Shown piece by piece: positions 5,525 to 22,967 of a stretch of DNA of 22,967 nucleotides (positions are counted from its first letter, which is position 1; the number at the start of each line of letters is the position of its first letter). The stretch is taken from the NCBI GenBank assembly GCA_024278555.1, contig JAJRSX010000051.1:1-22967 (forward strand). The letters are read 5' to 3'. The position numbers and the translations under genes were made by a program. This DNA comes from a bacterium (lineage in GTDB: Bacteria; CG2-30-53-67; CG2-30-70-394). The notes beneath the pieces were generated by a model. The model saw only the letters and a program-made list of their open reading frames with translations. It was not told the DNA's origin and did no database searches.

Positions 5525-8500
5525 ATGAAGACCTCCGCCACCCTCCCCTCCCCCTCCCCGAGATGTCACACCGCTTTCCAGGCCGGCTGGCTGGTGCTCC
5601 TGGCGGCGCTGCTGGTCGTGCCGCACGTCGCGCGCGCCAACTCCATCGTCGCCAACCACTGCGACTGGAGCTTCAACCACATCACCCAGTTCGACGTGGC
5701 GGACACCATCTGTGTCGACGGCGACATCGACAACTTCAGCTTCGTTCAGTTCTTCGCGGACGCCTACATCGTCCCGAACCAGGTGTGGTCCGGCGGCGAG
5801 GCCCTCCACGACATCACCAGTGAAAATCGTCTCGTCAGCAGCATCACCGGCGGTGGCTTTTTCGGTGAGACCATCGGTCTGCCCGGTGGTACTCCGCGTG
5901 GCGAGTACGACCTGATCCTCGATGACCCGCCTAATGGCCACTACGACCCGGGCTTTGACGCGATTATCGGTGCCGGCCCTGAGTTTGCCTTCCGCGTGGT
6001 GGAGAGCGGCCGGCCGGTCCCCGACGTGAGCCAGATCAAGCTCCGTGCCGCCGGGCTGGAGACCCATTACTCCAACATGGCCATCTACTGGTCGCAGCTC
6101 CTCGACCTCGCCGATGCCCTCAACATGGCGTCCGCGGTGGCCGGCGGGCCGCTGGGCATCCTCGAGTACTACATATGGAAGCCGTACAACGATCTGACCG
6201 GCGACTTTGCCCGCAAGATCATCGGCGGCTACGGACCGAACCCCACCCCGCCCCCGGAACGTCAGGCCTTCGGCGTCGCGGGCAACGCCGCCAAACACTG
6301 GGGAGACCTGGCGCGTGACCCCGCCGATCCTCTCTTCCAGGTACTCGTCCCCCTCGACCTTGCGACAGTGGCCTCCGAGACGGCCGCCTTCTCGGGTCCG
6401 TACACCTACCCCTTCACGCCGATCGGCACGAGTCAGCGTGAGGCCGACTTGGTCGCCTGGGGCAACCTCTCGATGGAGCAGGCCGCCCTGGTGAAGGCCC
6501 TGCGCCGAACCTTCGAAAAGTTCCAGGGCGCCGACCAGGCTTTCGACGACCCCTACGCCTATCTCCAAGCGCGGCAACTCAAGAAGTATGCCGACCTCCT
6601 GGCGACCAACCTCACGGCCACCATCGCCGCGGCCCAGGCGGCCCGGGCCAACCTCATCGCCACCGGTGACGATGCCCTCTTCGATGTCACCGCCCTCGCC
6701 GCCTTCCAGCAGCGGGTGATCAACAGCGGCCTGACCGCGGACGAGATCAACAATATCCTCGCCCTCGGCTTCACCGCCGCGGACATCACCGAGATCGAGC
6801 TGCGCATCGCCGGCTGGCAGCTCCCCGCGGCCGACGGCCGAGTCTCCGACCAGATCGACGCGGTGGTGGCCGACATGACCGCCGGCGTGGCCGACTTCCA
6901 GGCGCTCGCCACCACCAGCCAGGCGTTGATGGACTTCCTCGCCCCGAAGATCACCCTCACCGCACCCACCGCTGCCGCGGGCGGGCCGTACACCGGTGTT
7001 CAGGGGAGCGCCATCGCCCTTGATGGCTCCGCCTCCAGCGACCCGAACGGCGACGCACTCGCCTTCGCCTGGGACCTCGACGGCGACGGCCTCTTCGATG
7101 ACGCCACCGGCGCTTCGGCCACCTTCCAGTCAAACGTGGAGGGGAGCTTCCCCGTCGGCCTGAAGGTCAGTGACCCCAGCGGCAACAGCGACATCACCTA
7201 CGCCCAGGTGACCGTCACCAGCGCCAACGACCCGCCACAGATCACCGCCTTCGCGCCCGCCTCCACCACCCCGGTGGCCACCGCCGCCGCACCGCTCGCC
7301 TTCTCGGTCACCGCCAACGACCCGGACGGCGACCCCCTCACCTACGAGTGGACCGTGGACGGCACCGTCGTCTCCACCGCGACCTCCTTCACCTACACCC
7401 CGGCGATCACCGACGCCGGCCACGTGCTGGTGCAGGTGACGGTGAGCGACGGCAGCCCCTTCAGCGTCGACGTCAAGGCGAGCCGCAACGTCACCGTCTA
7501 CTCCGACGCCGACGGCGACACCTACTTCTCCGATGTCGACTGCAACGACGGCGACGCCGCCATCCACCCGGGCGCCCCCGAGGTGTGCGACAACGCCGAC
7601 AACAACTGCGACGGCACCACCGACGAGGGGTTTGACGGCGACGGAGACGGCTTCACCACCTGCGCCCTGCCCACGCCCGACTGCGACGACGCCGACCCCG
7701 CCACCTACCCCGGCGCCCCCGAGGTGTGCGACTCCAAGGACAACAACTGCAACGGCACCATCGACGAGGGGCTCTTCGTCGACCTCGACGGTGACGGCGT
7801 GACCGCCTGCGGCGGCGACTGCGACGACAACGACCCAAACAACTTCCCCGGCAATGTCGAGGTGTGTGACAACCAGGACAACGACTGCGACACCCTCATC
7901 GACGAGGGGTTCGACGCGGACGGCGACGGCTTCACCACCTGCGCCCTCCCCACCCCCGACTGTGACGACACCAACGCGGCGATCAAGCCGAGCGCCGTCG
8001 AGGTGTGCGACCTAATTGACAACAACTGCGACGGCGCCATCGACGAGGGGTTCGACGGCGACGGTGACGGCGTCACCACCTGCGGCGGCGACTGTGACGA
8101 CGCCGACCCGAACAACTATCCCGGCAACGTGGAGGCGTGCGACCACGCCGACAACGACTGTGACGGGGTGGTCGACAACGGTTTCGACCTCGACGGTGAC
8201 GGCTTCACCACCTGCGCCCTGCCCGCCCCCGATTGTGACGACGGGGACGCCACCACCTACCCCGGCGCACCCGAGCTGTGCGACTCCAAGGACAACAACT
8301 GTGACGGCGCCATCGACGAGGGGGTCACCGCCGACGCCGACGGCGACGGGGTGACGATCTGCGCCGGCGACTGCGACGACACCGATCCGGCCATCTTCCC
8401 CGGCAACCCCGAGGTATGCGACGCCAAGGACAACGACTGTAACGGCCTGGTCGACGACGGCCTCGACGGTGACGGCGACGGCTTCACCACCTGCGCGGGT

Positions 8501-11500
8501 GACTGCGATGACACCAACCCCCTGGCCCACCCGGGCCGGGTAGAGATCCGCCACAACGGCTTCGACGACGACTGCGACACGGCCACACCGGACGACTACG
8601 CCGACACCTTCATCGTCGCCACCGACGACTCCGGCCGGGTCTACGTCGCCTCCTCCAACGGCGACGGCACCTGGTCCAACTACCGCCAGGAGGCAGCCCT
8701 CTCCAGCACCCTCCGCGGCGTCGCCATCGAGGACTTCGACGGCGACAACGACCTCGACTTCCTCATCCCGGAGATCTCCGACAACCGCAACCTGAAGATG
8801 CACCTCTTCGCCAATGACGGCGCGGAAAACTTCACCGACCTCGGGGTGGTGGCGGAGAGCGGCGTCTCCACCGGCCGCGCCTACGGCATGGCCGCGGGCG
8901 ATTTCAACCACGACGACCACGCCGACTTCATCGTCAGCCGCAACGGGCGCTACGTCATCATCGGCCTCGGCGACGGCGCCGGCGGCTTCACCGTGACCGA
9001 GACGGACACCGGCCTCTCCTCCGGCCGCGGGATCGACGTGGCCGACTTCGACCACGACGGCCACCTCGACTACGTGCGGGCGGTCTACTCCTCCGGTCAG
9101 ATCACCCTCTTCCACGGCAACGGCGACGGCACCTTCACCTCCCTCGGGGTGGTCGCCGACGCGGGTAGCGACCCGTACGGCGTGGCCGCCGCGGACTTCA
9201 ACGAGGACGGCCACATCGACATCCTCGCCAACGCCGGCGGCTCCGGGGATGCCACCTTCTTTGCCGGCAACGGCGACAACACCTTCCAGGCCGGTGTCGC
9301 GGTCCCCTCGATCGACTTCAACAACTACGGCAAGTACGGCGCCTACGACTTCAACCGCGACGGCCACCAAGACCTGATCACCGTCAGCCATACATCCAGG
9401 GTCATCCGCTATTACCCGGGCAACGGTGACGGCACCTTCGGCGCGGCGGTCCAGGTGAACACGAGCAACACCGCGAGCAACGTCCTCGGCGTGGCGGCGC
9501 CGCCGGGACCGAATCGTGCCGGGGGACCGACGGCGATCGCCCTCCCCTATTCGACCGTCGACACGATCGGCGCCACCGTCGCCTTCGACGGCTCCCTCTC
9601 CTACGACGACGGCGCCATCGTCTCCTACGGGTGGGACTTCGATGACACCACCAGCGACACCGGCGCCACCCCGAGCCACGCCTTCCCCTCGGTAGAGGGC
9701 GACTACGGGGTCGAGCTGTCGGTCACCGACGACGTGGGTAACGTCGACATCGACCGCGCCTTCGTGCGCCTCCTCGGGGCGCTGCCGGTCGCCGTGGCCG
9801 GGGGCCCCTACACCTTTGGCGAGGCCTTCGCCAACGGCGGCATCTACACCGTGCCCCTGGACGGCTCCGGCTCCTCCGATGACGGCGCCGCACCCCTCCG
9901 CTACCAGTGGGATCTCGGTACCGAGGTCAACGAGACCTTTGCCGGTGGCGCCATCGATAGCTCCGTGTGGACCGCCTCCAGCAATGTCAGCGTGGCTGCC
10001 GGCGAGGCAGTGGTGGTCGGCGCCGGCGGCTGGGGGAGCCAGTACCTGGTCACGAACGGCACCATCACGCGCAGCGCCGGCCGTTCCGTTACCGGCCGCA
10101 TGCAGGTCGACGCCGGCGGCAACCGCTATGTGATGTGGGGGTTGAAAAACACCAACAACGACTACAACTACACCCAGTTCTATTACGCGATCTACTTCGC
10201 CAACAACGCGATCCAAATCTATGAGGGGGGCGCGTACCGAGGCCAGTTCGGGAGCTTCGCGGACAACACGAGCTACGACGTGCGCATCGACACCAAGGGG
10301 GCTGCGGGTGCGACCTACTACTTCCGCCCCACCGGCACCACCGCGTGGACCCGCCTCTACGACTCGACCTACTCGAACGCGACCACCTTCCGTTTTGGCG
10401 CCACCGTCCATAGCGGCACGATCCACCTCGACGACTTCCTCGCCCGGCAGAGCTCAACGGCGGAGCAGCCCAACGCCGTTTACAGCGACCTGGGCCTCCA
10501 CAATATATCTCTGACGGTGACCGACGGCGTCGGCCAGACCGACACCGACACCACCACCGTCACCCTCGTCGCCGGCGCCCCGCCGGTGGCCGATCCGGGC
10601 GGGCCGTACACCCCGGGTGAGGCGGCGGCGAGCTGCAACCAGTGGACCGTTGCCTTCGACGGCACCGGTTCCACCGACGACAACGCGATCTACACCTACA
10701 CGTGGGACTTCGGCGACGGCTCCACCGGGACCGGCGCGACGCCGACCCACACCTACGCCGCCCCCGGCACCTACACCGTCACCCTCACGGTGACCGACCA
10801 CGCCCTGCAGACGGACACCGCCACCACCACGGTGACCACCACCCCCGGTGCGCCCCCGGTGGCCGACGCCGGCGGTCCCTACACGGTGGACGAGACCGCC
10901 GCCAGCGGCGGCCTGTGGACGGTGACCCTCGACGGCACCGGCACCACCGACGACAACGGGATCTGCGACTACCAGTGGGACTTCGGCGACGGCGCCACCG
11001 GCAGCGGTCCGACGCCGAGCCACCAGTACGCGGCGGCGGGTGACTACACCATCACCCTGACGGTGCGTGACCATGCCCACCAGGCGAACAGTGCCACGGG
11101 CATCGTCCACGTGACCGTGAACGACCCGCCGGTGGCGGCCCACGGCGGGCCGTACGCGGTCGACGAGAACCAGGCGAGCGGCGGTAGCTACACCGCCACC
11201 TTCGACGCCGGCGCCTCCACCGACGACTTCGGGATCTGGAAGTATGAGTGGGACTTCGGCGACGGCGCCACCGGCAGCGGCGCCACCCCCACCCACGTCT
11301 ACACCGCCCCCGGCACCTATACCGTGACCCTCACGGTGACCGACAACGGCCGCCAGGCAACCACCACCTCCACCCTCATCGCGGTGACCACCAACGGCGC
11401 GCCGATCGCCGACGCCGGCCCGGCACAGACCACCGAGGTGGGCTTGCCCGTGACCCTCGACGCCACCGGCTCCACCGACGACGTGGGGATCTTCTCCTAC

Positions 11501-14500
11501 CTGTGGGACTTCGACCTGCCACCCTTCGCCGAAGGCTTCACCTCCGGCATCCTCGATACCGAAACCTGGAGCGCGTCGACCGGCGCGGCCGTCACCGGTA
11601 ACGAGGCCGTGGTGACAGGCGCCGGCTCCTGGGGCAACCGCTACCTGGTCACCACCGACACCTTCTCCCGTACCGCCGGTGACTCCTACACCGGCCGCAT
11701 CATGGTGGAGAGCGGCGGCAATCGTTACGTCATGTGGGGGCTGAAAAACACCAGCACCACCTACAGCTACACCCAGTTCCCCTACGCGATCTACTTCAAT
11801 AACGGCTCCATCAACATCTACGAGGACGGTAGTAACCGCGGTAGCTTCGGCAGCTTCACCGACGGCACCAGCTACGACGTGCGCATCGACCTCAAGGCGG
11901 CCGGCGCCACCTACTTCGTCCGCGAGACCGGGGCCCCCGCCTGGACCCAGCTCTACGACTCGACCTACTCGTCGACGACGCCCCTGCGGCTCGGGGCGAC
12001 GGTCCACAGCGGCATCATCCATCTCGACGACTTCGTCGGACCGCCTCCCGGCAGCGCGAGAAGCCACCTGCCGGCGACAGAGATCGCCTACCCGGCCGCG
12101 GGGACCTACCACCCGTCGGTGACGGTCACCGACAACGCCCTGCAGACGGACACCGACGCCACCGTCATCACCGTGGTAGTCGGCGCCGCGCCGGTGGCAA
12201 ACGCCGGTGGGCCGTACAGCACCAACGAGGATGTCCCCACCCGCTTCAACGGCCGCGCCTCCACCGATGACTTCGGCATCGAGTGGTACACGTGGGACTT
12301 CGGCGACGGCACCACCCTGACTACCCGCAACCCCTTTGCCGACCACCGATACACCGTGGCAGGCAGCTACACCGCTACCCTCACGGTGACCGACTTCGCC
12401 GGCCAGTCGGCGAGCGACTCGGTGACCGTCAACGTCTCCGCCGACCCGGTGGTGGCGTGCGTGCCGTGGCAGTTCACCGGCGGCGTCGAGGTGCCCCACG
12501 ACACCTGGTCGGGCAAACAGATCACCCTCAAGGGCGTGGTCTGGTCCCTGCACGGGCCCCTCACCTACACATGGGACTTCGGTGACGGCTCGGCCACAGT
12601 GAGCGGTACGGTCACCGACAACCGCCACATCCAGGCGAAGCATACCTACAGCGGTGTCGACGGCGCGCCGTTTGTCGCCACCCTCACGGTGACCGACGCC
12701 AACGGCCAAAGCGCCTCCGACTCATACCTCGTACGCATCCGCGCCAAGTCCCTGGAGATCGAGACCAACGTCGCCATCGACGAGGGGCTGTGGTACCTGC
12801 AAGGGGTCCAGTCCCGTTCGGAGACGAGCGGCCTCCTCTACGGTTCGTGGACCTACGGCGGCTACATCGCACACGCCACCGGCTCCGCGGTCCAGGCCTT
12901 CGAGATCAACGGACACCTCGAGTTCGGCGATGTGCGCGAAGACCCCTACGTGGAGACGGTCTCCCGTGGCCTCCACTCCCTCTTCTCACTCTTGCGGCCG
13001 GTCGGTATCGGCACGCAGACCTACGGCGACCCCGACACCAACGGCAACGGGATCGGGATCGAGGTGGCGAGCAGCCGGCCGATCTACGAGGGCGGCATGG
13101 TGATGGACGCCATCGCCTCCTCGGGGGCGGCGGCCAACTTTGCGGACAGCGGACCGTCAGGGGTTAAGGACCGAACCTACAAGCAGGTTATCCAGGACAT
13201 GGCCGACCAGTACGCCTGGGGCCAGTACGACCACGCCACCGTGGGCGGCGGCTGGCGCTATAGCTGGAACAGTGGGCCGGACAACTCCGCCTGCCAGTGG
13301 GCCGCCATCGGCCTGCACGCGGCCAAGGAGATCTTCGGTCTCGACACCCCCCAGTGGGTGAAGGATCGCAATGATGTCTGGCTCTCCTACAGCTTCAACG
13401 GCGCCGGCTTCGGCTACACCGGCGCCGGCAACGGCATCGCCCAGACGCCATCAGGGCTGGTGCAGATGTCCTTCGCCGGCAACGACACCACCGACCCGCG
13501 CTGGATCGCGGCGGAGAACACCATCACCAATAACTGGAGCTCCTGGTACCGGGGCACGAACAACTACTACGCCCTCTTCGCGGTCACCAAGTCGATGCGC
13601 CTGGCGCTCCCCAACCCGGTAGTCAACCTCACCGGTACCGGCGCCAACAACGGCCTCGACTGGTTCAATGATCCGGTGAGCGGCGTCGCCCGCACCCTGA
13701 TCGACGACGCCTTCGCCAGCTCCGACGGCTCCTTCTCCGGCAGCGGCTCGTGGGTACGGCAGCCGACGCGCACCGCCTGGGGGATCATCATGCTCACCCC
13801 GACGCTCTTCGTGCAGCCGCCGGTGGCCGACGCCGGCTCCGACCGGGTGTGGGGGGTCGACGTGCCGCTGACCCTGGACGGCTCGGGCTCCTTCCACCTC
13901 GACCCCTTCCGGTCGATCGTCAAGTACGAGTGGGACCTCGACGGAGATGGCGTCTTCGACACCACCTCCACCGACCCGACCACCACGGTGACCTACTCCT
14001 CCGCCGACTATCCGGCCGCGACCCTGCCGACCAACGTCACCGTCCGGCTGTGGGTCACCGACAACAACGTGCCGCCGAAGACCGACACGGACACGGCGGT
14101 GATCACCATCGCCGTGCCGCCGCACCCGCCGATCGCCGACGCGGGCGGCCCCTACACCTGCACCGCGGGCCTGCCCTGCACCCTCGACGGCTCCGGCTCG
14201 TTTGATATCGACCCCACCGACTTCATCACCGCGTGGGAGTGGGACACGAACAACGACGGGACCTTCGGCGACACCACCGGCAAGCTGCCGGTGATCACCT
14301 TCACCACCCCGGGCATCCACAACGTCGGCCTGCAGGTGTGGGATAACGCGGTCCTCAACGACACCAACGGCAACGGCGTCCAGGATCCGGAAGAGCGGCT
14401 CAACGACCACGATTTCACCACCGTGACCGTGGTCGCCAACCAGCCGCCGGTGGCCGACGCCGGTGGGCCGTATGCGGTGGATGAGGGGTCCAGCGTCACC

Positions 14501-16138
14501 CTCGACGGTTCCGCCTCCTCCGACCCGAACGGCGACGCCCTCACCTACAAGTGGGACCTCGACAACGACGGCGCCTACGACGACGGCAGCGGTGCCACCG
14601 CCCCCTTCGCCGGGATCGACGACGCCACCGCCACGGTCGGCTTGTGGGTCTCCGACGGGGCGCTCATCAACACGACGACCACCACGGTGGTGGTCAACAA
14701 CGTCTCCCCGGCGGTCATTGCCGGTCCCGACCAGGCGATCGACGAGGGCTCTACCGCCTCGGTCACCGCCACCTTCACCGACCCGGGGGTGCTCGACACC
14801 CACACCGCCGCCGTGGACTGGGGTGATGGCTCCGCTCCCGAGGCAGCGTCCGTCACCGAGGCGGGCGGCAACGGCTCCATCGCCGCTGGCCACGCCTATC
14901 CCCAGGACGGCACCTACACGGTGACGATCACCGTCACCGACGACGACTCCGGCGTGGGTCAGGCGACCCTGAAGGTCACCGTGCGCAACGCCGCCCCGGT
15001 GGTCGACGCCGGGCCGGACCAGGGCGCCGTCGCCGGCCAGACGGTGACCCTGCCACCCGCCACCTTCACCGACGCAGGCGTGCTCGACACCCACACCGCC
15101 ACGGTGGACTGGGGCGACGGCTCGGCCGTCGACACCGCCCCGGTCACCGAGGCAGGCGGCAGCGGCACCGCCTCGGGCGCCCATGCCTACTCCGCGCCGG
15201 GGCTCTACACGATCACCGTCACCGTCACCGACGACGGCGGCGCCTCCGGCTCGGATACCGCCAAGGTCCAGGTGGGCAATGGCAACGGACCTCCCACCGC
15301 GGACGCCGGCGGACCGTACACGGTGGACGAGGGGAGCGACGTGACCCTCGACGCCAGCGGCTCGACCGATCCGAACAGCGATCCGCTCACCTACGGGTGG
15401 GATCTCGATAACGACGGCGTGTACACCGACGCCACCACCGCCACCACCCTCTACCACGGCGTCGACGACGGCACCTATCCGGTGGCGGTGGAGGTCTCCG
15501 ACGGCGCCCTCAGCGACACCGCCGCGAGCCAGGTGGTGGTGAACAACGTGGCGCCCACCGTCACCGCCGGCCCCGACCTGACGATCACCGAGGGCGACCC
15601 CGTCGCCCTGGCGCCCGCCACCTTTACCGATCCGGGTACCAGCGACACCCACACCGCCACCCTCGATTGGGGTGATGGATCGCCCGTGGAGGCGGGTGCC
15701 GTAACCGAGGCCGGTGGCAACGGCTCGGTGGCCGGGAGCCACGCCTATCCCACCGCCGGTACCTACACGGTGATCGTCACGGTCACCGACGATGATGGCG
15801 GCGTGGGCTCGGCGAGCTTCCAGGTCGATGTCCGAATGGCGCAGCAGAAGCCCATCGACGACCTCACGGCGAGGCCGAAGCTCAACCAGGTACAGCTCGT
15901 GTGGACCTGTGCACCGGGTGCGGTGAGCTACAACATCTACCGCGGCAACACCGCGGGCGGCCCCTACACCCTCCTCGCGGCGGGTCACACGACGACCTAC
16001 TGCACCTATCTCGACCAGGGGCTCATTACCGGAACCACCTACCACTATGTGGTCACGTGGATCGACGCCTCGGGTCGCGAGTCGGCCTTCTCGAACGAGG
16101 CCGTCGCCAGCCCCACCACCCGCAGACGGGCCCGGTAG
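5525..16138 (+). CDS. Giant secreted multi-domain PKD/MopE/FG-GAP surface protein
   Basis: A 3537-residue exported protein, probably a surface or matrix adhesin. Residues 1-38 are a signal peptide ending HVARA. Residues 39-475 are an unrecognised N-terminal region, partly beta and then helical. Two PKD/Ig-like domains follow (478-655), eight MopE-type Cys/Asp repeats (658-1019), and an FG-GAP/VCBS propeller (1025-1317) with DFDHDGHLDY-type calcium loops. PKD domains then occupy about 1332-2406; two of them are interrupted by a duplicated module of about 175 residues (1468-1644 and 1999-2174). An alpha/alpha helical domain resembling terpene-cyclase repeats covers about 2409-2762 (GGWRYSWNSGPDNSACQWA). 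Seven more PKD-like domains (2765-3437) and a fibronectin-III domain (3439-3529) lead to the tail RRRAR. GAGAGAG precedes the ATG by about 5 nt. The protein has no PEP-CTERM tail and no visible type I secretion signal. A role in adhesion is inferred from domains. Confidence 0.9.
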   Translation: MKTSATLPSPSPRCHTAFQAGWLVLLAALLVVPHVARANSIVANHCDWSFNHITQFDVADTICVDGDIDNFSFVQFFADAYIVPNQVWSGGEALHDITSENRLVSSITGGGFFGETIGLPGGTPRGEYDLILDDPPNGHYDPGFDAIIGAGPEFAFRVVESGRPVPDVSQIKLRAAGLETHYSNMAIYWSQLLDLADALNMASAVAGGPLGILEYYIWKPYNDLTGDFARKIIGGYGPNPTPPPERQAFGVAGNAAKHWGDLARDPADPLFQVLVPLDLATVASETAAFSGPYTYPFTPIGTSQREADLVAWGNLSMEQAALVKALRRTFEKFQGADQAFDDPYAYLQARQLKKYADLLATNLTATIAAAQAARANLIATGDDALFDVTALAAFQQRVINSGLTADEINNILALGFTAADITEIELRIAGWQLPAADGRVSDQIDAVVADMTAGVADFQALATTSQALMDFLAPKITLTAPTAAAGGPYTGVQGSAIALDGSASSDPNGDALAFAWDLDGDGLFDDATGASATFQSNVEGSFPVGLKVSDPSGNSDITYAQVTVTSANDPPQITAFAPASTTPVATAAAPLAFSVTANDPDGDPLTYEWTVDGTVVSTATSFTYTPAITDAGHVLVQVTVSDGSPFSVDVKASRNVTVYSDADGDTYFSDVDCNDGDAAIHPGAPEVCDNADNNCDGTTDEGFDGDGDGFTTCALPTPDCDDADPATYPGAPEVCDSKDNNCNGTIDEGLFVDLDGDGVTACGGDCDDNDPNNFPGNVEVCDNQDNDCDTLIDEGFDADGDGFTTCALPTPDCDDTNAAIKPSAVEVCDLIDNNCDGAIDEGFDGDGDGVTTCGGDCDDADPNNYPGNVEACDHADNDCDGVVDNGFDLDGDGFTTCALPAPDCDDGDATTYPGAPELCDSKDNNCDGAIDEGVTADADGDGVTICAGDCDDTDPAIFPGNPEVCDAKDNDCNGLVDDGLDGDGDGFTTCAGDCDDTNPLAHPGRVEIRHNGFDDDCDTATPDDYADTFIVATDDSGRVYVASSNGDGTWSNYRQEAALSSTLRGVAIEDFDGDNDLDFLIPEISDNRNLKMHLFANDGAENFTDLGVVAESGVSTGRAYGMAAGDFNHDDHADFIVSRNGRYVIIGLGDGAGGFTVTETDTGLSSGRGIDVADFDHDGHLDYVRAVYSSGQITLFHGNGDGTFTSLGVVADAGSDPYGVAAADFNEDGHIDILANAGGSGDATFFAGNGDNTFQAGVAVPSIDFNNYGKYGAYDFNRDGHQDLITVSHTSRVIRYYPGNGDGTFGAAVQVNTSNTASNVLGVAAPPGPNRAGGPTAIALPYSTVDTIGATVAFDGSLSYDDGAIVSYGWDFDDTTSDTGATPSHAFPSVEGDYGVELSVTDDVGNVDIDRAFVRLLGALPVAVAGGPYTFGEAFANGGIYTVPLDGSGSSDDGAAPLRYQWDLGTEVNETFAGGAIDSSVWTASSNVSVAAGEAVVVGAGGWGSQYLVTNGTITRSAGRSVTGRMQVDAGGNRYVMWGLKNTNNDYNYTQFYYAIYFANNAIQIYEGGAYRGQFGSFADNTSYDVRIDTKGAAGATYYFRPTGTTAWTRLYDSTYSNATTFRFGATVHSGTIHLDDFLARQSSTAEQPNAVYSDLGLHNISLTVTDGVGQTDTDTTTVTLVAGAPPVADPGGPYTPGEAAASCNQWTVAFDGTGSTDDNAIYTYTWDFGDGSTGTGATPTHTYAAPGTYTVTLTVTDHALQTDTATTTVTTTPGAPPVADAGGPYTVDETAASGGLWTVTLDGTGTTDDNGICDYQWDFGDGATGSGPTPSHQYAAAGDYTITLTVRDHAHQANSATGIVHVTVNDPPVAAHGGPYAVDENQASGGSYTATFDAGASTDDFGIWKYEWDFGDGATGSGATPTHVYTAPGTYTVTLTVTDNGRQATTTSTLIAVTTNGAPIADAGPAQTTEVGLPVTLDATGSTDDVGIFSYLWDFDLPPFAEGFTSGILDTETWSASTGAAVTGNEAVVTGAGSWGNRYLVTTDTFSRTAGDSYTGRIMVESGGNRYVMWGLKNTSTTYSYTQFPYAIYFNNGSINIYEDGSNRGSFGSFTDGTSYDVRIDLKAAGATYFVRETGAPAWTQLYDSTYSSTTPLRLGATVHSGIIHLDDFVGPPPGSARSHLPATEIAYPAAGTYHPSVTVTDNALQTDTDATVITVVVGAAPVANAGGPYSTNEDVPTRFNGRASTDDFGIEWYTWDFGDGTTLTTRNPFADHRYTVAGSYTATLTVTDFAGQSASDSVTVNVSADPVVACVPWQFTGGVEVPHDTWSGKQITLKGVVWSLHGPLTYTWDFGDGSATVSGTVTDNRHIQAKHTYSGVDGAPFVATLTVTDANGQSASDSYLVRIRAKSLEIETNVAIDEGLWYLQGVQSRSETSGLLYGSWTYGGYIAHATGSAVQAFEINGHLEFGDVREDPYVETVSRGLHSLFSLLRPVGIGTQTYGDPDTNGNGIGIEVASSRPIYEGGMVMDAIASSGAAANFADSGPSGVKDRTYKQVIQDMADQYAWGQYDHATVGGGWRYSWNSGPDNSACQWAAIGLHAAKEIFGLDTPQWVKDRNDVWLSYSFNGAGFGYTGAGNGIAQTPSGLVQMSFAGNDTTDPRWIAAENTITNNWSSWYRGTNNYYALFAVTKSMRLALPNPVVNLTGTGANNGLDWFNDPVSGVARTLIDDAFASSDGSFSGSGSWVRQPTRTAWGIIMLTPTLFVQPPVADAGSDRVWGVDVPLTLDGSGSFHLDPFRSIVKYEWDLDGDGVFDTTSTDPTTTVTYSSADYPAATLPTNVTVRLWVTDNNVPPKTDTDTAVITIAVPPHPPIADAGGPYTCTAGLPCTLDGSGSFDIDPTDFITAWEWDTNNDGTFGDTTGKLPVITFTTPGIHNVGLQVWDNAVLNDTNGNGVQDPEERLNDHDFTTVTVVANQPPVADAGGPYAVDEGSSVTLDGSASSDPNGDALTYKWDLDNDGAYDDGSGATAPFAGIDDATATVGLWVSDGALINTTTTTVVVNNVSPAVIAGPDQAIDEGSTASVTATFTDPGVLDTHTAAVDWGDGSAPEAASVTEAGGNGSIAAGHAYPQDGTYTVTITVTDDDSGVGQATLKVTVRNAAPVVDAGPDQGAVAGQTVTLPPATFTDAGVLDTHTATVDWGDGSAVDTAPVTEAGGSGTASGAHAYSAPGLYTITVTVTDDGGASGSDTAKVQVGNGNGPPTADAGGPYTVDEGSDVTLDASGSTDPNSDPLTYGWDLDNDGVYTDATTATTLYHGVDDGTYPVAVEVSDGALSDTAASQVVVNNVAPTVTAGPDLTITEGDPVALAPATFTDPGTSDTHTATLDWGDGSPVEAGAVTEAGGNGSVAGSHAYPTAGTYTVIVTVTDDDGGVGSASFQVDVRMAQQKPIDDLTARPKLNQVQLVWTCAPGAVSYNIYRGNTAGGPYTLLAAGHTTTYCTYLDQGLITGTTYHYVVTWIDASGRESAFSNEAVASPTTRRRAR
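7498..8580 (+). repeat. Tandem MopE-type metal-binding-motif repeats inside the giant gene
   Basis: Eight imperfect repeats of about 135 bp, each encoding a DCDDxDPxxxPGxxEVCD..DNxCDGxxDEG unit, as in Cys/Asp-rich MopE-type putative metal-binding motifs. After the first repeat, two versions of the linker partly alternate: TTCALPTPDCDD-type (repeats 2, 4, 6) and CGGDCDD/CAGDCDD-type (repeats 3, 5, 7, 8). The last repeat loses its final Cys pair (RVEIRHNGFDDDCD). DNA identity between repeats is high enough for recombination or assembly collapse. Confidence 0.85.
9926..10455 (+). repeat. Duplicated inserted module, copy 1 (within a PKD domain)
   Basis: Encodes about 175 residues (NETFAGGAIDSSVW to LDDFLARQSS) that split a PKD domain after YQWDLG and before the closing HNISLTVTD strand. 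It shares blocks GGNRYVMWGLKNT, SYDVRID, LYDSTYS and GATVHSG.IHLDDF with copy 2 at 11520-12045. The beta-rich sequence resembles a LamG/concanavalin-like carbohydrate-binding sandwich, but I cannot confirm the family. Confidence 0.75.
11520..12045 (+). repeat. Duplicated inserted module, copy 2 (within another PKD domain)
   Basis: The second copy of the beta-rich module (AEGFTSGILDTETW to HLDDFVGPPP), inserted at the equivalent place of a different PKD domain, after YLWDFD and before YHPSVTVTD. I estimate by eye well over half identity to copy 1. Three uninterrupted PKD domains (about 10576-11390) lie between the copies. Confidence 0.75.
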
Positions 16139-18989: not shown

Positions 18990-19700
18990 CTACCCCTGCT
19001 TTCTCCGCAGTCCGGTGAGGGCCGCAAGGCCGAGCCCCAGACCATACAGGGCGAGGGTGGTCGGCTCGGGGATCGCCGGGCCGCCGCCCGCCGGTTTCTT
19101 CAGCAGGTTGCTGGTGAGGTAGAGGGTGTAGTCGTTGCTGTCCGGGTCGGTCTGCGACAGGACGAGGCCGGAGGTCGGCTGAACGTCGGAGATCAGGAAG
19201 TCGACGATCCCCAGCTCCCCCGCGGCGAGGGTGAAGTCCCAAGCCATGGCCATGGAGACGTCATCGGGAAAGGTGGTGTCACCGTAGATGCTGGTGCCGA
19301 CGCCGTTGTCGAGAGCGCCGGCCTGGAGGTTCTCGAAGATGTCGCCGTTGAAAAACCCGGGCTCGTCGACCTCCCACGTCTGGCCCGGCGCGGCAGTGCC
19401 GCCCTGGGCGCCGATCTCGTTGAAGAAGGTGTTGGCGAGCTGATCGATCTCGTGGTCGAAGAAGGCGCCCACGTAGTGGGACCCGGCGCCGCTGACGGTG
19501 ATTCGGAGCGTACCGAGACCGGTGGTGGCGTTGAACGCGCCGGTGTTCACCCCGGCCGGGAGGGGATCGCCTAGGGTTGGGTCGGCGAACGTACTGTCGA
19601 CGTTTACCGCCCAGTCGAAGAGGTCAACGGTGACCGCCTGGGCGGGGAGGGCTGCGAGCGGCAAGGCCGCCCCCAGCAGTAGAGCCATCAAGGTGCGCAT
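18990..19700 (-). CDS. PEP-CTERM sorting-domain protein
   Basis: A 236-residue exported protein carrying the PEP-CTERM tail recognised by exosortase in Gram-negative bacteria. Residues 1-22 are a signal peptide (LMALLLGAALPLAALPAQA). The C-terminal 27 residues (210-236) contain the IPEPTTLALYG motif, a hydrophobic segment GLGLGLAALTG and a basic end LRRKQG, which is the complete tripartite signal. The middle is an acidic beta-rich domain (VDLFDWAVNVDSTF, GVGTSIYGDTTFPDDVSMAM) of the sort seen in matrix-associated PEP-CTERM proteins. AGGAG lies 8 nt before the ATG. I see no terminator or promoter in the 108 bp after the upstream gene, so the two probably share the sigma-54 transcript. No exosortase is in the window; its gene must be elsewhere. 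Confidence 0.93.
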   Translation of the reverse strand: MRTLMALLLGAALPLAALPAQAVTVDLFDWAVNVDSTFADPTLGDPLPAGVNTGAFNATTGLGTLRITVSGAGSHYVGAFFDHEIDQLANTFFNEIGAQGGTAAPGQTWEVDEPGFFNGDIFENLQAGALDNGVGTSIYGDTTFPDDVSMAMAWDFTLAAGELGIVDFLISDVQPTSGLVLSQTDPDSNDYTLYLTSNLLKKPAGGGPAIPEPTTLALYGLGLGLAALTGLRRKQG

Positions 19701-19808: not shown

Positions 19809-22030
19809 TTACCGCCGCCGGCGCCGCCGGACCACCGGCTTGGCAGACGCCTCGTTCGACTGGCAGAACTCGGCGTTGTTGGCGGCCGCCGGCCTCACCA
19901 CGTAGTAGTAGGTGGTGCCGTTGGTGACCGCCCTGTCGAGGTAGGTCGAGTAGCGCGAGGTGGTGGTGGCGAGGAAGGTGTACGGGCCGCCCGAGGTGGT
20001 GGAGCGGTAGACGTTGTAGTGGTCTGCCCCCGTATCACCCCAGACGAGCTGCACCTTGCCGCGCTTCGCTCGCGCCCGCAGATCCTTGATGCACGCGGCG
20101 CAAGCGGCGTCGTTGGCGCTCTTGACCGAGACCTGGGCCGAGTCGGTGTCGCTCAGGTCGCCCATGCCGCTGCTCGGGAAGGAGGTCGCCGTGGTGTCGG
20201 TGACCTGGAGCCGGATCAGGTAGTCCCCGACCCCCGCGGCGGTGAAGATGGCGGTGACGTCGGGCTGGCTGCCCACGGCGTCGCCGAAGGTGCCGTCGCC
20301 GTCGAGATCCCAGAGGTAGCTCTGGATCGTGTCGCCGGGCAGGCCGGGCTCGTGGAGCCCCTCGTCCGGGTTCACCGAGCCGGTGCCGTCGAGGGTGATG
20401 GTCTGCCCGACCACCGCCGGGTTGGGGATCGCCTGGGCGACGGCCACCGGGCCACCCGCCTGGAAGATTACCGGATTGAACATAAGGATCGCCCACGCGG
20501 TCTCGAAGGGGTATTGGGTACCGGTGAAGTTGTGGGCGTACCAGTGGCCGTCCGTCGCCTGGCCGTTGAGAAGCGTCCGCGCCACACCGTCGAGGGGGTC
20601 GCCCATGCTCACCTGGGCCGCGTACCAGTCGACGTCAGCGACACCGGCAGTCTGGGACTGAAGCATGACGATGGGCGGTGTCTGCAAGACCATCGACTTC
20701 ACGAAGGAGAACATCCCGTAGTAGTAGCTGCGGATGGCGCTCCCCGCACCACCGGTGTTGCCGAAGCGGTCGCGGATATAGGTCTCGGCCTTGTCCCAGC
20801 GGGCATCGCCGCGGCCAATCCCGTCAAGGCCATCTGCACCATCCCCGACGGAGCCACGGCGTAAGGCCCCCACGGGAAGGAGCCGTTGGAGGTGTACCCG
20901 AAGGCACCGTTGCTGTTCTGGCTACAGCCGAGCCACACCTCATTCTCGGTCTTCACCCAGCCAGGGACGGTGACACCCGCCCAGCCGGCCCGCTCCGCCG
21001 CCAGCAGCCCAATCGCCGCCCACTGACAGGCGGAACCGTCCGGCCCCTGGTTCCAGACATACCGCCAGCCGCCGCGAGCGGCGCCCGGGTCGTACTGGCC
21101 GTAGGCGTACGAATCCACCATGTCCTGAACGACGTCGGCGTAGGTGCGACCGAGGATCCCCGGGTTCGCACCCGCGGGGGCCTGGCCGGTGGTGGTGACG
21201 GCGCTGGGGGTCCCCGAGGCGATGATCGCGTCCATAAACATCCCGCCCTGGTAAACATAGTTACTTTGATTCACACGGACGCCGTAACCGTTGCCGTTGG
21301 AATCGGGATCGACCACGCCGGTGCCATTGGTCTGGTTGGAGATCCCCTCGGTCGTCAGAAATTGGAAGAGCCGCCGCATACCGCGCGCGACGTCCTCCGT
21401 ATACGGGTCGGAGGTGGGGCCGGACTCGAGGTGGCCGTTCGCCTCGAAGGCGTTGAGGTTCGTGGGGGTGATGCCGTAATAGCCGGATGATGCACAGCGG
21501 CTCCCGCACGAGGTTCCCTGGTTCCAGTCGCCGAACTCCTGGCCGCCGCTGGAGAACCGCTGCATCGTCTTGTGGAGGTACCAGAGCCCCTCGTCGATGG
21601 CCACGTTGACCTCGGTCTCGAGGGTCTTGTCGCGGATCTCCACCAGGTAGATCTGACTATCACTCTCGCCGGTGCTTGTATCCGTTACCGTCAGGCGAGC
21701 GGTAAAGATGTCGTTTGGGCTCCCGACGTAGGCGTGGGTGGCGTCGATCACGTACTGATTGGTCACCGTCCCCACCATCGGGGCGGTGCCGTCACCGAAG
21801 TCCCAGGTGTACTCGATGGTCGCTCCGGCCACACCCGAGGTTCCCTTGAGGGTGATGCTCTTGCCGCTCGACGTGTCGTGGGGGATGAGGCTGTTGGTCG
21901 CCACCCACGGCACCGTCTTCACCGTCGGCTGGACCGCCAGCGCCGGAGAGGCAAAGACGAAGGTAAGGAGGAGGGCCAAAAAGGTCGTCGTCCAACTGCG
22001 TGCTGGTTTATTGATTTCTACCTTGGCCAT
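19809..22030 (-). pseudogene. PKD/helical-toroid/FN3 secreted protein, frameshifted near 20816-20833
   Basis: A shorter paralogue of residues about 2309 to the C-terminus of the giant protein, exported by a signal peptide (residues 1-32, ending ASPALA). It holds a PKD domain (EYTWDFGDG), a terpene-cyclase-like alpha/alpha domain (NVAIDEGLWYLHKT, GGWRYVWNQGPDGSACQWAA), another PKD domain (YLWDLDGDGTFGD), an FN3 domain (YNVYRSTTSGGPYTF) and the tail VVRRRRRR. The first frame runs from the ATG at 22030 to GMVQMALTGL (about 20816) and the rest continues in the frame giving GRGDARWDKAETY. One missing base would restore a product of about 740 residues that aligns with the giant protein across the junction. 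This may be a real mutation or an assembly error; the rest shows no decay. GGAGGA precedes the ATG by 4 nt. Confidence 0.8.
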
Positions 22031-22449: not shown

Positions 22450-22967
22450 TTGCCCCTCTCCTCCGCCCCCCTCTTTCACCGCCTCGCCCCCCGTCTCGCC
22501 CTCGCCTTCGGGGGGATCGTGACGGTGGCCCTGCTGGCCACCGGGTTGCTCACCTACTCTCTGGTGGCGCGGGCGGCGGAGGCGCGGCTGGCGCACGATA
22601 TGGAGCGGGCGGCGGAGGTGATCGCCCGCTTCGGCCCGGGGCTCAACGACCGGCTGCTGCACCGCCTCGCCGACCTCCTCGGGAGCGAGGTCGTGGTGGT
22701 GGACACCACCGGCGAGGTGGTCTCCGGGTCGCTCCCCGCCCCCACCTGGCCGGCGGTGGAGGTGGCGGTCGCCGCCCGCATCTCGCCTACGGCGCGACAC
22801 GCACCGCCACAGCGGCTCACCCTCGCGGCCGGCGACTTCACCGCCCTCATCCGCCCGCTCGGGTCGACCACGGCGCCGCGCCACTGGCTCGCCCTCCTGC
22901 GACCGGTGGCGGCGGAGGCGGCGTGGCGGCGGCGCATCGCCACCGGCCTGGCGGTGATCGCCCTCGC
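22450..22967 (+). CDS. Membrane sensor histidine kinase, N-terminal part (3' end outside window)
   Basis: The open frame to the right edge encodes a membrane sensor layout. A transmembrane helix (FGGIVTVALLATGLLTYSLV, about residues 24-43) is followed by an Arg/Ala-rich segment, then about 100 residues of extracytoplasmic domain (DLLGSEVVVVDTTGEVVSGS) and the start of a second helix (ATGLAVIALA) at the edge. This is the usual N-terminus of a periplasmic-sensing histidine kinase; the catalytic part lies outside, so the call is inferred. I find no in-frame ATG before the helix. The TTG at 22450 is the best start, with CTG at 22426 possible and the GTG at 22519 unlikely because it falls inside the helix. 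It diverges from the paralogue operon and begins next to activator site 3, so it may be the input kinase for that regulon. Confidence 0.68.
   Translation, partial: MPLSSAPLFHRLAPRLALAFGGIVTVALLATGLLTYSLVARAAEARLAHDMERAAEVIARFGPGLNDRLLHRLADLLGSEVVVVDTTGEVVSGSLPAPTWPAVEVAVAARISPTARHAPPQRLTLAAGDFTALIRPLGSTTAPRHWLALLRPVAAEAAWRRRIATGLAVIAL

Follow-up and report, generated by a model that had tools for sequence, protein, structure and literature searches.

We found a family of secreted proteins in which one kind of PKD domain always precedes a helical toroid. The toroid is predicted at high confidence to be an extracellular representative of the squalene-cyclase/prenyltransferase fold group, and the gene encoding it is usually paired with a gene for a PEP-CTERM protein of one of two families, here called partners A and B. 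The window, meaning the whole 22,967-nt stretch of contig JAJRSX010000051.1 (assembly GCA_024278555.1) that was analysed, holds two copies of the toroid and one partner A gene. In the literature searched, no paper dealt with this combination of toroid and PEP-CTERM partner, and the pairing suggests a two-protein unit of bacterial surface matrices that has not been described before.

Two PKD-toroid genes in the window

Copy 1 lies in a giant protein on the plus strand, and copy 2 and the partner A gene lie on the minus strand:

5525-16138, + strand: open reading frame of the giant secreted protein, 3537 aa
12443-12742, + strand: PKD domain fixed ahead of the toroid, with motifs VPW..PHDTWSGKQITLKG...WDFGDGS
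12743-13804, + strand: predicted (alpha/alpha)6 toroid, copy 1, from the AlphaFold2 model, the match to 2sqc and the helix pattern
13028-13051, + strand: D-x-N-x-N loop DPDTNGNG, between outer helix 2 and inner helix 2
13247-13312, + strand: GGWRYSWNSGPDNSACQWAAIG, a QW-like turn and the N-terminal end of inner helix 3
15851-16135, + strand: FnIII-like C-terminal domain and terminal basic tail of the giant protein
18990-19700, - strand: partner A, a 236-aa exported protein with a predicted beta-sandwich and a PEP-CTERM sorting signal, 109 bp downstream of copy 2
19809-20873, - strand: second open frame of copy 2, with the remaining toroid, a PKD-like domain, an FnIII-like domain and an RRRRRR tail
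20699-22030, - strand: first open frame of copy 2, with the signal peptide, PKD and toroid helices as far as the frameshift
20806-20828, - strand: interval inside the copy 2 toroid where the homology changes reading frame
21643-20460, - strand: copy 2 toroid
about 21937-21644, - strand: copy 2 PKD domain

The giant protein runs from a signal peptide through a PKD array, MopE-type repeats, FG-GAP repeats, the PKD-toroid and further PKD domains to an FnIII-like end and a basic tail, RRRAR; Pfam matched 17 PKD_4 stretches, eight MopE-type repeats and FG-GAP repeats along it. The PKD domain directly ahead of the toroid matched Pfam PKD_4 above cut-off (PF18911 score above the gathering threshold), forms a beta domain in the structural model and is conserved in the 39 aligned rows. 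Both motifs quoted by the earlier note are present in this reading frame, and since the predicted structure gives the PKD domain at 12443-12742 and the toroid helices at 12743-13804, the position proposed there for the toroid (12750-13810) was right to within a few residues.

The earlier note also placed the same domain after a PKD domain in a single gene at 19809-22030. The copy is real, with 52% identity to the copy 1 domain, and a search of the window's genome with the domain returned two further pieces, both within copy 2; the gene itself is split by a frameshift, which is either an error in the assembly of this MAG or a real lesion. In the toroid tree, copy 1 falls with giant and RHS-linked toroids and copy 2 with short forms. 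A giant form and a second copy also share a genome in Halochromatium (L008, L031) and in a Desulfobacterales genome (L006, L017).

Fold and conservation of the toroid family

An AlphaFold2 model of the PKD-toroid, built from an alignment of 39 units, had a mean pLDDT of 93.7 and a pTM of 0.93. It comprises a beta domain (residues 1-103) followed by twelve main helices (107-454) in a ring of six outer and six inner helices, the arrangement that defines the (alpha/alpha)6 toroid fold group. The best solved match of the helical part was squalene-hopene cyclase (SHC; 2sqc, Z 24.1, 287 residues, 3.4 Å), followed by drimenyl diphosphate synthase, GH76, a polysaccharide lyase, farnesyltransferase beta and the thioester domains of complement and alpha-2-macroglobulin (A2M), with Z of 17.7-18.6 for GH76 and the polysaccharide lyase and about 16 for the thioester domains. 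Structure prediction and a fold search had been proposed as the check on the earlier note, with a different fold or an explanatory enzyme family as grounds against it; the predicted fold is an alpha/alpha barrel, and the domain is not accounted for by any enzyme family that has been characterised.

Profile comparison with hhalign matched the toroid to a secreted squalene-cyclase-like protein (probability 90.8, E 1.2e-6, 308 columns) that occurs in the window's own genome (contig C118) and in a sister genome (C145), where its gene lies about 6 kb from a PKD-toroid gene. These proteins resemble the PKD-toroid in export and in a match over the whole toroid, and differ in lacking a PKD domain and, within the region that aligns, a PDxNGNG loop, with no partner gene seen adjoining. 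True SHC was also considered as sequence kin and was rejected (hhalign probability 2.4). The end of the window, 22450-22965 (+), enters a sensor kinase gene of which contig C118 seems to be the continuation (L087; L088); C118 carries a regulator, an inositol-phosphate synthase-like gene and the secreted SQHop-like toroid, and a similar set lies about 6 kb from the PKD-toroid gene in the sister genome. A further SQHop-like toroid protein of the window's genome (L086:9217-10434, - strand) is encoded on contig C106, not far from an exosortase gene.

Searches of genome contigs yielded 50 toroid loci in at least six phyla: Pseudomonadota, Thermodesulfobacteriota, Verrucomicrobiota, Acidobacteriota, Planctomycetota and Myxococcota. 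One contig (L033) is filed as a Halobacteria archaeon, groups with bacterial short forms and is likely misbinned. Family members range from 70% to about 31% identity to the window domain, and the 39-unit alignment shares both PKD and toroid motifs, which bears out the suggestion of the earlier note that the two form a reused unit. Pfam, NCBIfam and PHROGs have no model for the toroid domain; the isolated copy 1 toroid stretch had no Pfam match even at E 1, and neither the window domain nor the 39 relatives reached the gathering score of PF13243 or PF13249. Scanned singly, the 39 members gave PKD matches and otherwise isolated weak matches to unrelated families, and a PDB sequence search with the PKD-toroid returned PKD-type domains only.

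The alignment contains 24 invariant columns, spread over the PKD domain (G50) and the toroid, where they include D116, W120, P171, Y172, D201, N203, N205, D255, D258, Q264, W274 and D283; His161 is nearly invariant. The best conserved parts on average are the inner helices, which start with TA, YQGGM, DNSAxQW, TPSGMVQ, YYG and TAW, and many invariant residues lie at these starts and in the loops preceding them. Outer helices carry VAIDEGLWYLHK, YxETVxRG, QDMVDxYAWGQ and similar motifs, with QW-like turns (Q..G.W) after outer helices 1, 3 and 6. The loop residues D201, N203 and N205 are invariant across the 39 units, and the wider pattern [DE]xNxN is present in 43 of 44 toroids, which suggests a possible metal-binding site.

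The catalytic signatures of the known fold relatives are missing from these conserved positions. DxDD, the acid motif of class II terpene cyclases and SHC, was seen in 4 of 44 toroids and never in a conserved column; among the same 44, no Cys column that could correspond to the prenyltransferase zinc site is conserved above 40%; the thioester motif GCxEQ was found in none of them, with a loose pattern in one; and a GH76-type adjacent pair of invariant Asp is absent, DD itself occurring in 27 of 44. Since the DxDD of the cyclases, the zinc Cys of the prenyltransferases and the CxxQ of the thioester proteins are not conserved, the fold is held in common and the known chemistries are not. "Terpene-cyclase-like", the wording of the earlier note, thus suits the fold, on the strength of the prediction, the solved structures and the profile match, and does not extend beyond it. 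Compared with SHC (2sqc; PF13243/PF13249), with which it shares the (alpha/alpha) toroid and QW-like turns, the PKD-toroid is a single toroid, exported, PKD-linked, without DxDD and below the Pfam cut-offs. Complement and A2M thioester domains are likewise extracellular toroids of this fold beside beta domains, and the PKD-toroid differs from them in lacking the CxEQ thioester and any conserved Cys. The squalene-cyclase fold appears to be employed outside the cell without its known catalytic residues.

Pairing with exported PEP-CTERM proteins

Partner A of the window matched PF07589 above cut-off and its genome has two exosortases above the TIGR02602 cut-off, which together place it among PEP-CTERM proteins (PF07589/TIGR02595 with an exosortase in the genome). 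It shares 29-49% identity across the aligned length with 20 relatives, and scored E 1.4e-90 against a family HMM built from all relatives with the window protein included. Most short-form toroid genes have a gene for such an exported PEP-CTERM protein of about 230 aa directly upstream. By hand tally, sequence upstream of the toroid gene was available for 36 short-form or RHS-type loci, and a partner lies there in 30 of them, 22 from family A (partial matches in L014 and L049) and eight from family B, whose signals are of the PEP-CTERM or VPDSG-CTERM type; neither family was found in the other six (L026, L027, L047, L048, L051 and L052). Partner stop and toroid start are separated by a median of 483 nt, about 400 nt of which is the signal peptide and PKD domain. 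The window departs from this arrangement, its partner A sitting downstream of copy 2. The earlier note makes no mention of this gene. Upstream of giant genes no partner was seen in the stretches read from three genomes, one stretch being partly masked; in several of these genomes partner A is encoded at another site, and for most giant genes no partner adjoins.

Among 396 Acidobacteriota genomes that were not selected for the toroid, the toroid was found in seven and partner A in five, and all five carry the toroid, with the two genes adjacent in each. The hypergeometric probability of this overlap is about 3e-10, or about 1e-6 without two genomes that were already known, for genomes that are not fully independent and of which only the best candidates were scored. 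One of 288 Verrucomicrobiota genomes has partner A, and it carries the toroid. Partner and toroid distances correlated in a mirror-tree comparison (r = 0.41, reached by 2 of 5000 permutations), a value for which shared ancestry alone could suffice. The two proteins have no sequence homology to each other.

A single reading frame encodes partner A and the toroid protein in Aquabacterium (L053), and partner B and the toroid protein in three genomes of Opitutia (L022-L024); the order is partner, PEP-CTERM-like segment, arginines, second signal-peptide-like segment and PKD-toroid. Two of these frames with an internal PEP-CTERM-like segment are:

L053:4945-8085, partner A fusion, its internal segment just under the Pfam cut-off
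L022:4888-8403, partner B fusion

The fused loci fall in different parts of the toroid tree, so fusion arose at least twice. Judging from the order of the segments, the fused product is possibly a polyprotein processed by exosortase and signal peptidase.

The C-termini of the toroid proteins follow the type of partner. B-type genes and L026 form one group in the toroid tree (support 84/97, drawn as an open fork), and all toroid proteins of this group, plus L045, carry an extra C-terminal domain X of about 110 residues (L021, L022-L024, L026, L028, L030, L036 and L045) that is present in no A-type locus. Complete A-type toroid proteins end in Arg in 14 of 16 cases, with Lys and Leu in one each. 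That partner type accords with C-terminus suggests that this end of the protein may be tied to the partner or to how it is sorted; the plain alternative is that members of the B group simply share their ancestry. Short tails with a C-terminal Arg recur at many loci, both window copies among them (RRRAR in copy 1 and RRRRRR at 19812-19829 (-) in copy 2), with no membrane segment seen.

Exosortases were matched in 42 of 47 toroid genomes, above cut-off in 38. The comparison sample of Verrucomicrobiota had matches in 212 of 288 genomes, above cut-off in 131, so the enrichment in toroid genomes is moderate, the phyla being unmatched; with so high a base rate, exosortase co-occurrence by itself was set aside as weak proof of a link.

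A proposed matrix role and its alternatives

We tentatively favour, at somewhat less than even chances, a reading of the PKD-toroid as an exosortase-linked module of the extracellular matrix. The toroid, rigidly joined to its leading PKD domain, would form the head of a secreted matrix protein and handle its ligand. In the compact form it would be made together with the small exported partner, whose PEP-CTERM tail would take it through the exosortase pathway to the surface, where the partner, through physical contact, may keep the PKD-toroid-PKD-FnIII protein within the exopolysaccharide layer or direct it there; the giant form would present the same head within a long adhesin-like chain of PKD and FG-GAP domains. 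The toroid mouth, formed by the N-termini of the six inner helices together with the preceding loops, is rich in conserved Trp, Tyr, Asp and Asn, and would bind, or possibly process, a matrix ligand. We infer that polysaccharide is the likeliest one, given the association with PEP-CTERM proteins and the presence of aromatic and acidic side chains at the mouth.

A precedent for the partner's side of this role is PepA, a PEP-CTERM protein of Aquincola that promotes floc formation through exopolysaccharide retention and whose overexpression converts released into bound exopolysaccharide and restores flocs (PMC9850573). Partner A resembles PepA and other exosortase-dependent surface proteins in its sorting signal, and differs from PepA in scoring below the NF033554 cut-off and in being paired with a toroid gene, where PepA is paired with prsT. 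Only the L033 partner resembled the PepA model (39.3 bits against a cut-off of 80 bits, E 6e-10), and the window partner was not among the matches of this search. This sub-cut-off likeness counts against the matrix-module reading, as do the commonness of exosortases in these phyla, the six partnerless loci among 36, the many partnerless giants and the downstream partner in the window. To our knowledge, neither function nor partner is known for many PEP-CTERM proteins, and a toroid family without a Pfam or NCBIfam model, found across several phyla and genetically tied to two PEP-CTERM families, offers a concrete pair with which to approach the function of exosortase cargo.

The invariant Asp residues D116, D255, D258 and D283 could equally signify catalysis, which counts against a reading confined to binding. 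The likeliest alternative, still an unlikely one in our estimation, is a two-chain glycan-active enzyme that forms extracellularly from the toroid and the beta-sandwich of the partner and cuts or modifies exopolysaccharide. GH15, GH65, GH94 and GH116 enzymes pack a super-beta-sandwich on an (alpha/alpha)6 barrel. The partner A model (pLDDT 86.7) is mainly beta with a C-terminal helix, and nearly all of its best 25 solved matches were N-terminal beta-sandwich regions of GH94, GH116 and GH15-type enzymes; as those enzymes join such a sandwich to an (alpha/alpha)6 barrel, the matches fit a split enzyme, at Z of 5.3-7.4, which lies within the range reached by unrelated models. Foldseek gave nothing for the partner model at E below 0.1, and no credible solved relative was found by sequence. 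The invariant acids, the nearly invariant His161, the tight pairing and fusion of the two genes and the toroid's matches to GH76 and polysaccharide lyase agree with an enzyme, whereas the toroid is nearer to squalene cyclase than to either, has no invariant adjacent acid pair and, in giant forms, is surrounded by PKD, Ig-like, FG-GAP, RHS and REJ domain types, adhesin-like or Ig-like, among which the scans recognised no catalytic domain, glycan-active or other. A broader speculation, also doubtful, is that an exosortase-sorted beta-sandwich protein and a squalene-cyclase-fold toroid form either a two-chain glycan-processing enzyme or a polysaccharide clamp, sometimes made as a polyprotein that is cut at the internal PEP-CTERM site.

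The embedding of toroids in long PKD, FG-GAP, RHS and Ig-like chains would also suit a purely structural or adhesive block, with the toroid as a rigid spacer or protein-protein docking domain of a surface fibre and no small ligand to bind, and complement-type proteins bear the same fold among beta domains. We regard this as improbable: conserved inner helices, with invariant residues at their starts and preceding loops, exceed what a spacer needs, and this invariance is maintained across several phyla. A secreted terpene or lipid cyclase or transferase, suggested by the nearest solved fold and the QW-like turns, is already largely refuted and very improbable given the unconserved DxDD and zinc Cys, the failed profile match to true SHC, the export signal and the PKD context.

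Two further features were seen elsewhere in the giant protein. Eight MopE-type metal-binding repeats occupy 7505-8578 (+) and are found too in L004, its nearest relative. Inserts of about 175 aa each at 9923-10456 and 11525-12052 (+), 63% identical (NETFAGGAIDSSVW..., AEGFTSGILDTETW...), interrupt PKD domains and look like binding modules.
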